Shown here in pieces: positions 3,039 to 8,648 of a DNA stretch of 8,648 nucleotides. The stretch comes from an uncultured Lysobacter sp. Lineage in GTDB: Bacteria; Pseudomonadota; Gammaproteobacteria; Xanthomonadales; Xanthomonadaceae. Made by a program: the position numbers and the translations under genes. The DNA lies in contig CAMLID010000114.1 of the NCBI GenBank assembly GCA_946480055.1, positions 1-8,648 of the forward strand, in the 5' to 3' direction. The notes under the pieces were generated by a model. The model ran no database searches and had not been told where the DNA came from. It worked only from the letters and a program-made list of their open reading frames with translations. The first letter of the stretch is position 1, and each line of letters opens with the position of its first letter.

Positions 3039-4265
3039 TCAGCGACCGAGGAACCCGGCCAGCGCGGTGCGCAGGCGCGCCAGGCCTTCGGCGAGGTCGG
3101 CGTCGGCGATGTTCAGGGCCGGCACGAAACGCAGCACGTCGGGGCCGGCCTGCAGCAGCAACAGGCCGTGGTCGATACAGCGGTCGAGGATCTCGCCGGC
3201 CTTGCCGGCGTGCTCCGGACGCAGTTCCGCCCCCAGCATCAGGCCGCGACCACGGATGTCGGAGAACAGCGAGAACTCGGCATCCAGCGCGCTCAGCGCG
3301 GCGCGCAGGGCGGCCGACTGGCGCTCGACGTTGGCCAGCAGCGCCGGCGACGACAGCTCGCGCAGCGCGGCGCCGGCGACCGCAGCGGCGAGCGGATTGC
3401 CGCCGAAGGTGGTGCCGTGAGCGCCGAACTGCATGCTCTCGCCGGCGCGCGCGCCGACCAGCATCGCGCCGATCGGGAAACCGCTGCCCAGCGCCTTGGC
3501 CAGGGTGACCACGTCGGGCACGACTTCGTAGCCGTGGCAGGCGAACAAACGGCCGGTGCGGCCCATGCCGCATTGGATCTCGTCCAGGATCAGCAAGGCG
3601 TCGTGGCGATCGCAGAGCGCACGCAGGCCCTGCAGGAATTCCGCCGTCGCCGGCGTCACTCCGCCCTCGCCCTGCACCGGTTCGACCAGCACCGCGCAGA
3701 CGTCGCCGTCGGCCATCGCGGCTTCGGCCGCGGCCAGGTCGTTGAAGTCGCTGTAGCGGAAGCCCGGCGGCAGCGGCTCGAAACCTTCGTGGTACTTGGG
3801 CTGCGCGGTCGCGGTGACCGCGGCCAGGGTGCGGCCGTGGAAGCTGCCGCGGAAGCTGAGGATCGCGCGGCGTTCGGGCGCGCGACCCTGCGCGGTCGCC
3901 CACTTGCGCGCGAGCTTGATCGCGGCCTCGTTGGCCTCGGCGCCGGAATTGCAGAAGAACACCCGTTCGGCGAAACCCGAGGCCTTGACCAGAGTTTCGG
4001 CCAGGCGCAGCGGCGGCTCGCTGACGAAGACATTGCTGGTGTGCCAGAGCTTGCCGGCCTGCTCGGTCAGCGCCGCGATCAGCGCCGGATGGGCGTGGCC
4101 GAGCGCGTTGACCGCGATGCCGGCGCCGAAATCGACGTACTCGCGGCCGTCGCGATCCCAGACCCGCGCGCCTTTGCCGTGATCGAGCACGATCCGGCGC
4201 GGACGGTAGACCGGCAGGTAGTAGCGCTCGGAAAGGGCGAACAGCGATTCGGTCGAGGCGGTCAT
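3039..4265 (-). CDS. argD: acetylornithine transaminase family protein (ArgD-like class-III aminotransferase)
   Basis: Encodes a 408-residue PLP aminotransferase, probably acetylornithine aminotransferase, which interconverts N-acetylglutamate semialdehyde and N-acetylornithine in arginine synthesis. Seen in order: NALGHAHP near residues 53-60, HTSNVF (75-80), NSGAEANEAAIK (106-117), SFHGRT (141-146), LDEIQCGMGRTG with the cofactor Asp at D228, TLAKALGSGFPIGA with the Schiff-base Lys at K257, and GTTFGGNPLA. HTSN and DEIQ.G.GRTG are typical of the ArgD/AstC/GabT group. The ATG at 4265 (MTASTESLF) is chosen because the extension up to 4328 is Pro/Arg-rich and unlike the family. There is no clear Shine-Dalgarno sequence. 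No other arg gene is nearby, so the substrate rests on sequence resemblance alone; succinylornithine or another omega-amino substrate is possible. Confidence 0.9.
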   Translation of the reverse strand: MTASTESLFALSERYYLPVYRPRRIVLDHGKGARVWDRDGREYVDFGAGIAVNALGHAHPALIAALTEQAGKLWHTSNVFVSEPPLRLAETLVKASGFAERVFFCNSGAEANEAAIKLARKWATAQGRAPERRAILSFRGSFHGRTLAAVTATAQPKYHEGFEPLPPGFRYSDFNDLAAAEAAMADGDVCAVLVEPVQGEGGVTPATAEFLQGLRALCDRHDALLILDEIQCGMGRTGRLFACHGYEVVPDVVTLAKALGSGFPIGAMLVGARAGESMQFGAHGTTFGGNPLAAAVAGAALRELSSPALLANVERQSAALRAALSALDAEFSLFSDIRGRGLMLGAELRPEHAGKAGEILDRCIDHGLLLLQAGPDVLRFVPALNIADADLAEGLARLRTALAGFLGR

Positions 4266-4285
4266 CGGACGCGGAGTCGGTTGGG

Positions 4286-4301
4286 GAGAACGCGTATTCT
4301 C
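4286..4301. promoter_or_regulatory. operator-like palindrome upstream of the ArgD-like gene
   Basis: GAGAA (4286-4290) N6 TTCTC (4297-4301) is a perfect 5+5 dyad centred about 28 bases before the start codon, in an AT-richer patch. It is placed where a repressor could act on the aminotransferase promoter. It does not match the ArgR box as I know it. The regulator is unknown. Confidence 0.25.
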
Positions 4302-4335
4302 GCCCAAGTCGGCGACCGGCGCTGGCATTCCGGCG

Positions 4336-4386: not shown

Positions 4387-5484
4387 TCAGTCGAAGCAGT
4401 GCGGCACGAAGCGGCTGCTGTTGCGGGTCACGCGGCCGTCATCCTCGCGCATGCCCAGGCCCGCGGCGGCGTCGCCGACCACCCAGGCGCCGAGCACCGC
4501 GTGGCCGGCATCGCTGCGGTACAGCGGCGAATAGGCCTGGTAGACCGTGGCCGGCGCGGCCAGCAGCGGCGCGCTTTCGAACACCGCCACACCCTCGCCT
4601 TCGCGGCCATGGCGCGGCTTGGCGACCAGCGGCCCGTCGATGTCGGCCGGGTCGTGCGAGGCCTGCAGCAGGTTGGGATGACCGGGAAACAGCCGCCACA
4701 GCAAGGGCAGCAGCGACTTGTTCGACAGCAGTTGTTTCCAGGCCGGCTCGATCCAGCGCGTCGGCGCCACGGCCAAGTGCTCGGCGAAAGGCTCGGCCAG
4801 CAGCCATTCCCAGGGATAGAGCTTGAACAACTGCGCGATCGGGCGGTCTTCGAGGTCGACGTAACGCTGTTCGTGCCAGCCGATCTCGGACATATCCAGG
4901 GATTGCGTCGCGAAGCCGGCCTGGGCGCAGGTCTCGCGCAGGTACTCGACGGTGGCGCGATCCTCGGGCGCCTCCAGGCAGCCGGCGAAATGCACCAGCG
5001 CGTCGGCGGGCAGGACCTGCGGCCAGCGTTCGACCAGGCGCTCGTGGATCAAATTGAACTGATCGGCACCGGCCACGGTGTCTTCCAGCCAATACCACTG
5101 CACCACCGCGGCCTCGAACAGGGAGGTCGGGGTGTCGGCGTTGTACTCGAGCAGCTTGGGTTCGCCGTGGCCGTCGTAGGCCAGATCGAAGCGGCCGTAC
5201 AGCGCCGGCTCCTGCGCGCGCCAGGAGCGTTCGACCAGGCCAGCCGCGCGCGCATCCAGGCCGAGTTCGGCGTAGTCGCCGCGTTCGACCACGTGCGCCA
5301 CGGCTTGCAGGCACAGTTCGTGCAGTTCGGTCGTCGCCGCCTCGATGCGGTCGATCTCGTGGGTGCGGAAGCGGTAGCAGGCGTCGTCGACCCAATAGGT
5401 CCCGTCCAGCGAATGAAAATCGAAGCCCAGGGCCTCGACGCGGGCACGCCAGTCGGCGCGGGCGACACAGGATTCGCGGCGCAT
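4387..5484 (-). CDS. glutathionylspermidine synthase-like ATP-grasp protein (YgiC/YjfC type)
   Basis: Encodes a 365-residue protein of the glutathionylspermidine synthase domain family (Pfam PF03738), close in length to E. coli YgiC/YjfC (about 386) and lacking the N-terminal amidase domain of bifunctional Gss. Conserved blocks: GRFD (R98, D100) followed by LLEYNADTPTSL (111-122; E113, N115), KLYPWEWLLAEP (221-232), RWIEPAWKQLLSNKSLLP (243-260), KPRHGREGEGV (289-299), GAWVVGD (332-338) and a C-terminal block at 342-362 ending in NSSRFVPH. The R.D and E.N pairs match, as I recall, the Gss residues that bind glutathione and Mg, so an active ATP-dependent amide ligase is likely. The natural substrate of this subfamily is not established; the name should not be read as proof of glutathionylspermidine synthesis. 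The ATG at 5484 lies 10 bases after the stop of the upstream gene. It is third in an operon with the RGGFG-tail protein and a DUF350 protein. Confidence 0.92.
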   Translation of the reverse strand: MRRESCVARADWRARVEALGFDFHSLDGTYWVDDACYRFRTHEIDRIEAATTELHELCLQAVAHVVERGDYAELGLDARAAGLVERSWRAQEPALYGRFDLAYDGHGEPKLLEYNADTPTSLFEAAVVQWYWLEDTVAGADQFNLIHERLVERWPQVLPADALVHFAGCLEAPEDRATVEYLRETCAQAGFATQSLDMSEIGWHEQRYVDLEDRPIAQLFKLYPWEWLLAEPFAEHLAVAPTRWIEPAWKQLLSNKSLLPLLWRLFPGHPNLLQASHDPADIDGPLVAKPRHGREGEGVAVFESAPLLAAPATVYQAYSPLYRSDAGHAVLGAWVVGDAAAGLGMREDDGRVTRNSSRFVPHCFD

Positions 5485-5494
5485 CGGCGGCGCG

Positions 5495-5926
5495 TCAGGT
5501 TCCGGCGCTGCGGATGGCGTCGCCGGTGGAACCGAAACCGCCCCGGTAGCCGTTCTGGACCTGCGGCGCACGATAGCCGGGCCGATAGACGTAGCTGCCG
5601 CCGCTGCCGGTGTGGTGCTCGCTGGGGCAGCGATCATCGAGATAGGTAGGGCGCGTCGCCTGCACGTTCTCCGCCGACCACGGCCCGTACCAGCGTCCCT
5701 TCTCGTAGACGCAGGCGTCGCGGTAGTCGCATTCGCAGCTGTAGCGGTCGACGTAGCCATCGCGCACAAACTTCTCGGCCGTGGCCTCTTGCATCAACCC
5801 ATAGCCGATGAAGGCTGCCGCGCCCAGGCAGAACAGCGGAACTCCCAGAGTGCTCCCGCTCGGCTGCCAGAGAACACCGGTGACCATCGGAGGGCGCCCC
5901 CGCCGGATTTTGCTCTGCTTCGCCAT
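5495..5926 (-). CDS. small membrane-anchored Cys-containing protein with RGGFG tail, DUF1190/YgiB-like
   Basis: Encodes a 143-residue protein. A basic N-terminus (KIRRGRPP) is followed by one hydrophobic segment (about 27-45), then a hydrophilic part with four cysteines (C64, C66, C72, C100) around YSCECDYRDAC and DDRC. A low-complexity Gly/Tyr/Ser region follows, and the protein ends in a tail containing YRGGFGSTG (127-135). The tail resembles the conserved RGGFG near the C-terminus of E. coli YgiB/YjfM (DUF1190), and the gene occupies the same place as yjfM between a DUF350 gene and a YjfC-type gene. Unlike YgiB there is no lipobox, so it is probably held by an uncleaved membrane segment with the Cys region in the periplasm. 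The ATG at 5926 lies 3 bases after the DUF350 stop. Overall similarity to DUF1190 is weak; assignment rests on tail and synteny. Function unknown. Confidence 0.8.
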   Translation of the reverse strand: MAKQSKIRRGRPPMVTGVLWQPSGSTLGVPLFCLGAAAFIGYGLMQEATAEKFVRDGYVDRYSCECDYRDACVYEKGRWYGPWSAENVQATRPTYLDDRCPSEHHTGSGGSYVYRPGYRAPQVQNGYRGGFGSTGDAIRSAGT

Positions 5927-5929
5927 GGA

Positions 5930-6328
5930 TCAGTAGGTCATGGCTGCGGCGTTGATCAGGCCGACGCCCAGATGCAGCGTGGCGGAGAGCAGACCGGCGG
6001 CCTGCTCGCCACGCTCCATGCGCGCCGGGAAGCCCGGCAGCAACAGGCGCACCAAGGCGTATGCCGCCGTCTGCGCCAGCAACGCCACCAAGCCCCACAG
6101 CGCAAGATCCATCAGGCTGACGCTGTGGGCCATTGCGCTCGCCAACGGCAGGCAGAAACCCAGCAACGCACCGGCCAAGGCGGTGGCAACCGCCGTGTTG
6201 CCGTCGCGGATCAGCCGCAATTCGCGATGCGGCGTGAACTGCAGATACAGCGCCAGGTACAAGGCGACGAAGCCGATACCGACGCCGAAATAGCCGGCGA
6301 ACGCAGGCAGACCTTGCAAGTACGTCAT
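5930..6328 (-). CDS. DUF350 (UPF0719, YjfL-type) inner-membrane protein
   Basis: Encodes a 132-residue protein with four predicted membrane segments (about 8-30, 45-68, 72-97, 109-130), the size and layout of DUF350. Family signatures are FTPHRELRLIRDGNTA (31-46), GALLGFCLPLASA (53-65), the charged RMERGEQAAG (103-112), and the ending GLINAAAMTY (123-132). The repeated two-helix pattern (a charged/Gly motif before each even helix) suggests an internal duplication. The role is unknown; a channel or transporter-like function has been proposed for the family. It is the first gene of a three-gene unit with the RGGFG-tail protein (3-base gap) and the ATP-grasp enzyme. AAGGG abuts the ATG with no spacer, which is poor for a Shine-Dalgarno sequence, but no other in-frame start is plausible. 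Confidence 0.92.
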   Translation of the reverse strand: MTYLQGLPAFAGYFGVGIGFVALYLALYLQFTPHRELRLIRDGNTAVATALAGALLGFCLPLASAMAHSVSLMDLALWGLVALLAQTAAYALVRLLLPGFPARMERGEQAAGLLSATLHLGVGLINAAAMTY

Positions 6329-6486: not shown

Positions 6487-8082
6487 ATGACCCAGCCGCG
6501 CCGCTCGTCGTTCGCCTGCCTGTTGTCTGCCCTGCTTGTCGTCGGCTCCGCCGTCGCGGCGCCGCCGAACGCGGCCGCGCCGAAGATCTCGATCACCGAA
6601 ACCTCCGCCTTCGACGTCACATCGGTGCCGGTGTTCGCCGGCGACTATGCCGACATCTACGCCTACCTCGACCAGCACCGCGCCGAAAACCTGGCGCAGT
6701 TGCAGCGCTGGGTGCGGCAGCCTTCGATCAGCGCCCAGAACAAGGGCGTCAAGGAAATGGCGGAATTGCTGCGCGCCGACTTGCAGGGCCTGGGCTTCCG
6801 CGACACCGCGCTGGTGCCGACCTCGGGCCATCCTGGCGTCTACGGCTACTACGACGCCGGCGCCGAGCACACGCTGGTCGTCTACATGATGTACGACGTG
6901 CAGCCGATCGAGCCCACCGGCTGGAAGGTCGACGCCTTCAAAGGCGAACTGGTCGACGAGCCCGGCCTGGGCAAGGTCCTGATGGCGCGAGGCGCGACCA
7001 ATCAGAAGGGCCCGCAGCGCGCCTTCCTCAATGCGCTGGAGGCGATGATCCAGGTGCGCGGCAAGCCGCCGGTGAACCTGATCGTGCTGGCCGAGGGCGA
7101 GGAGGAACTAGGTTCGCCGCATTACCCGGAGATCGTCGCCAAGTACGAGGCGCAGCTGCGCAAGGCCGACGGCGTGTTCTTCCCGATGAACACCCAGGGC
7201 CGCGACGGCAAGGCCGGGATGTTCCTGGGCGTGAAGGGCATCCTGTATTTCGAACTGGAAGCGCGCGGCAATGCCAAGACCGGCGGTTCGCAGAAGAGCG
7301 AGGTCCACGGCTCGATGGCGGCGACGCTGGACTCGCCGACCTGGCGCCTGGTGCAGGCGCTGTCGACCCTGACCACGCCCGAGGGCGAGATCGCGGTGCC
7401 GGGCTACCGCGATGCGATCCGTCCGCCCAACGCCGAGGAGCAGCGCCTGTACAACGGCCTGATCGGCGAACGCGAGAAGGACGCGGCCAAGACCCTGGAA
7501 GTGCTCGGGGCTACGCGCTGGAAGAACGGCCGCAGCGTGCGCGAGTCGGTGGCGTCGGAGCTGTTCGACACCACGCTCAATATCGACGGACTGGTCGCGG
7601 GCTACACTGGCGAAGGCGTCAAGACCATCCTGCCGCACCGCGCGGTGGCCAAGATCGATTCGCGGCTGGTGCCGAACCAGACTCCGGAACAGGCCTTGGC
7701 GCTGATCCGCAAGCAGCTCGACGCGCAGGGCTTCGACGACATCGTGGTGCGCCAGCTCTCGGGCTATCCGCCGGCGCAGACCTCGGTCGAAGCGCCCTTG
7801 TCGCGCGCGGCGATCGGCACCTACCGCAAGTACGGTTTCACCCCGACCATCGCACCACGCCTGGCCGGCAGCGCGCCCTACTACGTGTTCACCCAGACTC
7901 TGGGCCTGCCGATGATTTCCGGCGGCCTCGGTCACGGCAGCGGCGCGCATGCGCCCAACGAATACATGGTGGTCGAACCGCAGGCCGGTTCGAAGATCGC
8001 AGGCCTGGCGCAGGCCGAGCGCTTCTATGTCGACCTGATGTACGCGCTGTCGGATGCGCTGAAGCCGGCGGCGAAGAAGTAA
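6487..8082 (+). CDS. secreted M20-family metallopeptidase homologue with altered metal site
   Basis: Encodes a 531-residue member of the M20 (carboxypeptidase G2 / carnosinase / DapE) family. A Sec signal peptide (basic TQPRR, hydrophobic 9-24, cleavage probably near A24/A25) sends it to the periplasm or outside. The catalytic-domain blocks are all recognisable: MMYDVQP (134-140), ARGATNQKGP beginning near residue 167, AEGEEELGSP (202-211), ADGVFFPMN (227-235), the dimer-domain His in SEVHGS (H274), and GHGSGAHAPNE with H488. Compared with the usual GHxD, (D)DKG and SD(N/T) motifs, the first metal His is M135, the bridging Asp is N172 and a further metal Asp is N235; the Glu pair (E206, E207), D137 and H488 remain. 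The ATG at 6487 follows AGGGA (6471-6475) and starts the signal peptide directly. It is monocistronic and divergent from the DUF350 operon. It is an intact M20 fold, but ordinary dinuclear zinc catalysis is uncertain. Confidence 0.92.
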   Translation: MTQPRRSSFACLLSALLVVGSAVAAPPNAAAPKISITETSAFDVTSVPVFAGDYADIYAYLDQHRAENLAQLQRWVRQPSISAQNKGVKEMAELLRADLQGLGFRDTALVPTSGHPGVYGYYDAGAEHTLVVYMMYDVQPIEPTGWKVDAFKGELVDEPGLGKVLMARGATNQKGPQRAFLNALEAMIQVRGKPPVNLIVLAEGEEELGSPHYPEIVAKYEAQLRKADGVFFPMNTQGRDGKAGMFLGVKGILYFELEARGNAKTGGSQKSEVHGSMAATLDSPTWRLVQALSTLTTPEGEIAVPGYRDAIRPPNAEEQRLYNGLIGEREKDAAKTLEVLGATRWKNGRSVRESVASELFDTTLNIDGLVAGYTGEGVKTILPHRAVAKIDSRLVPNQTPEQALALIRKQLDAQGFDDIVVRQLSGYPPAQTSVEAPLSRAAIGTYRKYGFTPTIAPRLAGSAPYYVFTQTLGLPMISGGLGHGSGAHAPNEYMVVEPQAGSKIAGLAQAERFYVDLMYALSDALKPAAKK

Positions 8083-8313: not shown

Positions 8314-8648
8314 TCAGCGCCGGTGCTTGGGCGCGCTGTCGAAATCCAGGAACAGATCCGGAAGCAGCGGCTGGGTGGGATCGACCGCGTAAGCGGCGAA
8401 ATCGGTGACCCCGAGCGCGAACAGCACATCGTCGTCGATCAGGAAGTGGCCGTAGTAGCCGCCCGCCGGCCGCACCAGCACCGCGTGCGCGGCGTCGGCG
8501 ACGATTTCCGGGGTCCGGCAGCGTTCGACCTGCACGCCCGGGATCATGTTGATCGCGTCGGTGGCGATCACCGTGCGCGGCCATAGCGCGTTGACCGCGA
8601 CGCCCTGCGGGCCGAACTCGGCGGCCAGGCCCAGGGTGACGAAGCTCA
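8314..8648 (-). CDS. short-chain dehydrogenase/reductase, C-terminal part (partial)
   Basis: The last 110 or so residues of an SDR; the 5' part lies beyond the right edge. The visible sequence begins FVTLGLAAEFGPQGVAVNAL, the helix that follows the YxxxK catalytic pair plus the next strand, and continues with WPRTVIATDAINMIPG, PEIVADAAHAVL and GHFLIDDDVL. NALWPRT with IAT is typical of the HSDL2-like group of classical SDRs, NAD(P)-dependent oxidoreductases acting on lipophilic or CoA-linked substrates, but the substrate cannot be told from this fragment. The nucleotide-binding TGxxxGxG motif and the catalytic Tyr/Lys are outside the window. The frame stays open without a stop from the edge to TGA at 8316-8314. 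Confidence 0.88.
   Translation of the reverse strand, partial: SFVTLGLAAEFGPQGVAVNALWPRTVIATDAINMIPGVQVERCRTPEIVADAAHAVLVRPAGGYYGHFLIDDDVLFALGVTDFAAYAVDPTQPLLPDLFLDFDSAPKHRR

Follow-up and report, generated by a model that had tools for sequence, protein, structure and literature searches.

A conserved group of M20-fold proteins with an altered metal centre, represented by a gene of an uncultured Lysobacter sp.

M20 is a textbook two-metal family. The metal ligands of MsAA are H91, D123, E158, E185 and H425 and its catalytic residues are D93, E157 and H226, according to PMC11511702. Sso-CP2, the M20 carboxypeptidase of Sulfolobus solfataricus (PDB 4mmo), contains the motif Asn-His-x-Asp, the Asp in RGASD and a Glu at the third ligand column (P233 in the window protein). 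Of the carnosinase-type dipeptidases (CNDP2, 2zof/4ruh; CNDP1, 3dlj; DUG1, 4g1p), CNDP2 contains the His, the bridging Asp and an Asp. In our study, we examined a gene for a 531-amino-acid M20-fold protein in an 8,648-nucleotide stretch of DNA (the window; contig CAMLID010000114.1, assembly GCA_946480055.1) of an uncultured Lysobacter sp. The window protein differs from Sso-CP2 at these three ligands. The five MsAA ligands mapped to M135, N172, E207, P233/M234 and H488 and its catalytic residues to D137, E206 and H274, so that two of the five metal ligands (E207 and H488) and all three catalytic residues were retained. By homology and fold the protein belongs to M20; the five-ligand set was looked for in the alignments and was not found, which sets the protein apart from the canonical two-metal M20 peptidases. 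The most likely reading, with a rough probability of 0.5, is a one-metal hydrolase or peptide-handling enzyme that is exported.

The preliminary description of this DNA had proposed a long intact frame for an M20 homologue at 6886–7956. The frame was indeed intact, but that span covers only M134 to just past H488, and the full gene lies at 6487–8082 on the + strand. The homology was borne out by Pfam, in which Peptidase_M20 scored 54.7 bits against a cut-off of 24.6 and M20_dimer 35.6 against 21. The AlphaFold2 model had a predicted local distance difference test score (pLDDT) of 84.2 and a predicted template modelling score of 0.84; it contained the M20 fold with the dimer domain, its top structural matches were M20 enzymes, and the closest solved structure was Sso-CP2. 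In a crude test on 120 listed relatives, 112 showed a hydrophobic 12-mer close to the N-terminus and 35 a lipobox-like motif, whereas a motif like that of twin-arginine translocation was rare (1/120 in the first clade and 9/120 in the second). No NCBIfam cut-off was reached by the seven proteins tested, and the best model in all seven was PRK06446 (NF005034), which we group with Sso-CP2. The window protein scored 272 bits against its cut-off of 369 (among the best 25 of 31 matches), a second-clade member 223 and five deep rows 123–164; for two of the six further relatives the test covered the best 25 matches. The source names of the homologues were generic (hydrolase, deacetylase or peptidase), and many rows carried no name.

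The sites were mapped by alignment with solved M20 enzymes (Sso-CP2, 2pok and carnosinase) and with M20 paralogues of other genomes. The features of the gene, all on the + strand, are given below, with counts from the 199-row alignment of the first clade and from the 120 second-clade proteins described further on.

6487..8082, + strand: gene for the 531-amino-acid M20-fold protein, stop codon included; intact frame, Lysobacter
6487..6561, + strand: probable signal peptide, residues 1–25, boundary placed by eye; helix at residues 11–23 and low pLDDT at the N-terminus
6886..6891, + strand: M134-M135; by alignment, M135 replaces the metal His of GHxD (M135 in 199/199 and 120/120)
6895..6897, + strand: D137, the catalytic Asp of GHxD, retained (198/199; 120/120); compare D93 of MsAA (PMC11511702)
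7000..7005, + strand: N172-Q173, with N172 in place of the bridging Asp (both 199/199 and 120/120)
7102..7107, + strand: E206 (general base) and E207 (metal ligand), retained (199/199; 120/120)
7183..7188, + strand: P233-M234, the column of the third ligand, which is Glu in the Sso-CP2 type and Asp in the carnosinase type (P233 in 199/199; residue 234 variable)
7189..7191, + strand: N235, outside the ligand column and variable (Asn in 160/199; 0/120)
7195..7197, + strand: Q237, clade-specific, beside the lost ligand (198/199; 120/120; 0/76 canonical rows)
7306..7308, + strand: H274, the dimer-domain His, retained (199/199; 120/120); compare H226 of MsAA (PMC11511702)
7663..7665, + strand: R393, retained; common to the M/N and canonical rows
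7870..7872, + strand: S462 of the GS-A-P motif, retained; likewise common to the M/N and canonical rows
7948..7950, + strand: H488, the metal-ligand His, retained (196/199; 120/120)

The residues M134/M135, D137, N172, Q173, E206, E207, H274 and H488 were thus at the positions given in the preliminary description. Two of the three ligand changes proposed there, M135 for the metal His and N172 for the bridging Asp, agreed with the alignments. The third, N235, was off by one or two positions and was rejected, because the third ligand column is P233-M234: the Glu of Sso-CP2 and 2pok was paired with the invariant P233, and the S-D Asp of carnosinase with M234. Other residues filling the canonical ligand positions were looked for by alignment, and none were found. 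In the geometry that we assume from CPG2 and DapE, E207 and H488 would hold the same metal, and the ligands private to the other metal would be the lost set. R393 is presumably the substrate-carboxylate anchor known from carnosinase-type enzymes, and we take the Arg and Ser to have the same roles as the substrate anchors of canonical M20 enzymes.

The 199-row alignment contained the query, 120 listed homologues and the proteins of 78 loci, and the two sets overlapped in their organisms. The homologues were the best 120 of 5308 proteins found at E ≤ 0.001 among 8000 candidates scored. K174, E205 and F232 were invariant in all 199 rows, together with M135, N172, Q173, E206, E207, P233 and H274. 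The three rows without H488 were L065, L074 and L075, and L074 and L075 have split frames; the conservation list was computed also without L072, L074 and L075. The 78 loci had been retrieved by peptide patterns including YMMYD and FFPMN, so these loci alone cannot show the residues to be fixed, whereas the 120 homologues and the genome searches were independent of these patterns. Sharers of M135 and N172 form a conserved clade, without N235 as a shared residue. Pairwise comparison of the window gene with nine Lysobacter copies gave a ratio of nonsynonymous to synonymous substitution rates (dN/dS) of about 0.10–0.32, which indicates purifying selection, and therefore the gene is not decaying. 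Decay and sequencing error, already thought improbable in the preliminary description, were rejected on this ratio together with the invariance of M135 and N172.

A second group was found by profile searches of whole genomes at about 397–506 bits, with a shorter member (L191) at 291 bits. It contained conserved YFMYD (YMMYD in one), (G/A)RGxxNxKGP, EGEEE (EGQEE in one) and Px..Q motifs. A homologue search from one of its members gave 7999 proteins, and in the best 120 of these M135, N172, Q173, E206, E207, P233, Q237, H274 and H488 were present in every protein. More than 300 relatives were examined across several phyla, and nearly all carried the Met/Asn/Pro pattern. The residues that occurred in at least 93% of 63 rows with Met at 135 and Asn at 172 (M/N rows), but in fewer than one quarter of 76 canonical rows, included D123, M135, N172, P176, P233, Q237, K250, D282, N365, D391 and Y427; L164 was left out of the M/N set for this comparison. 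K379, K389, R393, S462 and P464 were common to the M/N and canonical rows, as was the dimer His.

The members occur in Pseudomonadota, Acidobacteriota, Gemmatimonadota and Myxococcota (the last at locus L053). A match of at least 390 bits was present in 28/149 genomes of the Lysobacter family (motifs read in 13 of the 28), in 11/101 of Gemmatimonadota (motifs read in all 11), in 10/99 of Acidobacteriota (motifs read in all 10, one of them unreadable at residue 172), in 2/190 of Alphaproteobacteria and in 2/185 of Gammaproteobacteria. Each count includes the centre genome, picked because the gene is present in it, and the group names are taken from the locus titles through which the centre genomes were reached. 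The Acidobacteriota genome G515 adds three copies at about 247–317 bits. These three M20 copies lie within about 13 kb at locus L223 (4869–6569, 6655–8316 and 15736–17451); their residue 135 is Met, Met and Gln, and genes of MacB type, for an outer-membrane barrel and for alanine dehydrogenase lie nearby. Bacterium HR33 (L025, genome G161) contained two partial duplicates downstream of the gene: at a distance of about 1 kb, a 168-amino-acid open reading frame (ORF) matched profile residues 433–522, and a 62-amino-acid ORF beyond it matched residues 481–521.

Pairing of the two altered positions was examined in 153 M20 rows collected with the clade's own profile. Met135 was paired with Asn172 (or one unreadable letter) in 64 of 65 rows and His135 with Asp172 in 79 of 81, and two of the 153 rows were without one of the two positions. 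The exceptions were L153 (Met/Asp), L206 and L209 (His/Asn), one G515 copy (Gln/Asn), L205 (Asn/Gln) and three Gln/Asp rows. Five rows were removed to give a 148-row tree, in which all 64 M/N rows, with L153, L205 and the Gln/Asn copy, were on one side of a branch with a Shimodaira–Hasegawa-like approximate likelihood ratio test (SH-aLRT) value of 98. Eight rows adjoined this group (six His/Asp and two His/Asn), four of which carry the YNHYDVQ motif, as does Sso-CP2, which was not included in the tree. When the motif columns were blanked and the long branches L132, L164, L205 and L222 taken out for a control tree, 63 M/N rows still grouped with the Gln/Asn row on a single branch (SH-aLRT 92), and L153 fell outside. 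The trees were quick and without bootstrap, and the placement of the long branches L164, L205 and L153 is uncertain. On these comparisons the M/N proteins are a real and old protein group, and the recurrent subfamily suspected in the preliminary description is strongly supported by the invariance of M135 and N172, by the single branch with and without the motif columns, and by the occurrence in several phyla.

Other ligand changes were seen in the same collection. The M20 proteins L088 and L090 of Chromatocurvus halotolerans (G005) and L240 (G717) contained Gln for the metal His (YLQSDGQP, YLQLDGQP and YLQADGQ) and formed a branch of their own (SH-aLRT 99). L206 and L209 of the Acidobacteriota genomes G540 and G529 retained the metal His and contained Asn at the bridge and EGEDA or EGEDG for EGEEE, with E207 lost; this ligand loss is separate from that of the M/N clade.

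The other genes of the window are as follows.

870–2844, + strand: thiE and hemL; the thiE domain checked on the L001 counterpart only, hemL identified by eye
3039–4328, − strand: class III aminotransferase, domain checked on the L001 counterpart only
4387–6328, − strand: glutathionylspermidine-synthase-like gene and small membrane or secreted genes, by eye
8314–8646, − strand: fragment like a short-chain dehydrogenase/reductase, by eye

Clustering of the flanking ORFs at 89 loci of the relatives gave a TonB-receptor cluster at 22 and an M19 cluster at 8 (one member of each checked with Pfam). Two neighbour sets, of ORFs of 120–900 amino acids, were taken from loci L001–L078 with one (L001) of the nine Lysobacter loci. 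By raw counts without a background rate, M19 was the commonest family among the 98 adjacent ORFs (6), with M20 at 4 (25 commonest of 114 families), and among the 93 third-neighbour ORFs DPPIV_N (6) and S9 (4) led (25 commonest of 146 families). The ORFs were called crudely, and several neighbour loci are close relatives. The M19-cluster gene was present in the flanks of sphingomonad loci and of Chromatocurvus, an M14-type gene in sphingomonad loci, and S9/DPPIV genes in some gammaproteobacterial loci. Hydantoinase/oxoprolinase genes were found near the deep relatives L153 (locus L230, with TRAP, tripartite ATP-independent periplasmic, genes) and L164 (locus L231, with a dipeptide-type ATP-binding cassette transporter). 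A heterodimer with a close canonical paralogue was rejected, the Lysobacter genomes G001 and G002 having given one protein match each in a search that did not extend to more distant M20 proteins; canonical M20 relatives were present alongside a clade member in other genomes, such as G157.

For the favoured enzyme, we infer the metal number, the dimer, the hydrolysis and the substrate. The protein would be an M20-fold enzyme that is exported and probably forms dimers; of its two metal sites, the one made of His, bridging Asp and Asp/Glu has become Met, Asn and Pro. It would bind at most one metal, coordinated at the other site by E207 and H488 and perhaps by the side-chain oxygen of N172. Water would be activated by E206 and the oxyanion stabilised by H274 from the partner chain, while R393 and S462 would bind a ligand that carries a carboxylate, for instance a short peptide or an N-acyl amino acid. 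The retention of catalytic and substrate-anchoring residues tilts towards a functional enzyme that binds no more than one metal: E207, H488, E206, D137 and H274 were all kept though three of five ligands were changed. Also in its favour are the purifying selection, the residues K379, K389, R393, S462 and P464 in common with canonical rows, structural neighbours with one-metal titles, namely mono-zinc DapE (3isz and 4o23), one-cobalt acetylcitrulline deacetylase (2f7v) and Mn- or Zn-bound 5-nitroanthranilate aminohydrolase, and the M19 (6/98) and M20 (4/98) genes that adjoin some relatives. Several points weigh against it. Asn coordinates metal poorly and the bridging Asp is normally indispensable, so the site may be empty, and one-metal DapE presumably binds its single metal at the very site lost in the window protein. 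The pattern is looser among the deep rows, as in L153 with Asp at the bridge and the G515 copy with Gln for Met. The neighbours in the window are housekeeping-like (mostly by eye), and a fixed operon partner was rejected, because no neighbour was universal and the adjacent and third-neighbour lists were mixed. The overall pattern nevertheless appears to suit a working one-metal enzyme better than a dead relative, and His at 234 in one of the 199 rows and Glu at 171 in L191, L164 and L153 speak against a wholly emptied site.

Such a dead relative would be a metal-free periplasmic peptide-binding or scaffolding protein with the pocket retained and hydrolysis lost, which we hold to be possible but somewhat unlikely. 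The bridging Asp and the first-site His were absent from all 199 and 120 rows, and the M19, S9/DPPIV or M14 genes that flank the sphingomonad, Chromatocurvus and other loci mean that other enzymes could do the cutting; however, the near-invariance of E206, E207, H488 and D137 has no obvious reason if neither metal nor catalysis is needed, and a close canonical paralogue as partner was not found in the two Lysobacter genomes, although G157 does hold canonical relatives. At the other extreme, an ordinary two-metal peptidase with its site completed by Q237, D123 or the M135 thioether is very unlikely, since an acidic residue or His was present at 135, 172 or 233 in none of the 199 and none of the 120 rows and the bridging carboxylate is gone; these three groups are the exceptions to the lack of substitute ligands. 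A non-hydrolytic or new chemistry on the M20 fold seems rather unlikely, be it intramolecular cyclisation, as carried out by glutaminyl cyclases of the same clan with one zinc, or the use of a soft metal coordinated by Met and His. M135, N172, P233 and Q237 are nearly fixed in the M/N rows and absent from the 76 canonical rows, which implies a positive role, and the retained Glu-Glu, His and bridging position are those of glutaminyl cyclase; but the ligand of that enzyme is Asp, not Asn. The hydantoinase/oxoprolinase genes near L153 and L164 point the same way, but these are long branches and M20 amidohydrolases often accompany hydantoinase genes. Bolder and still more doubtful is the proposal of a class of exported M20-fold enzymes across phyla whose fixed Met/Asn/Pro/Gln centre, in exchange for the two-zinc site, binds no metal or a single one, perhaps other than zinc, and whose reaction, for instance cyclisation or acyl transfer, differs from ordinary peptide hydrolysis.

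No description of the M/N clade was found in the open-licence literature searched. Glutaminyl cyclase (clan MH, M28-like) binds one zinc by Asp, Glu and His beside a catalytic Glu; it belongs to another family and contains Asp where the window protein contains Asn, and its absence from the structural matches listed (50 + 50 entries) excludes nothing. The 5-nitroanthranilate aminohydrolase (5k8m/n/o/p) was 14–15% identical to the window protein. The titles of the mono-zinc DapE and acetylcitrulline deacetylase structures indicate that a single metal is possible in the M20 fold; we take these structures to keep all five ligands, unlike the window protein. Against the His, bridging Asp and Asp of CNDP2, the M/N clade contains Met, Asn and Pro, the last followed mostly by Met or Phe. 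The generic hydrolase, deacetylase and peptidase names may be wrong for many genes of the clade. A large old branch with Asn and Met fixed for the bridging carboxylate and the first-site His would show that strict selection can preserve the M20 fold without the dinuclear centre that defines the family.
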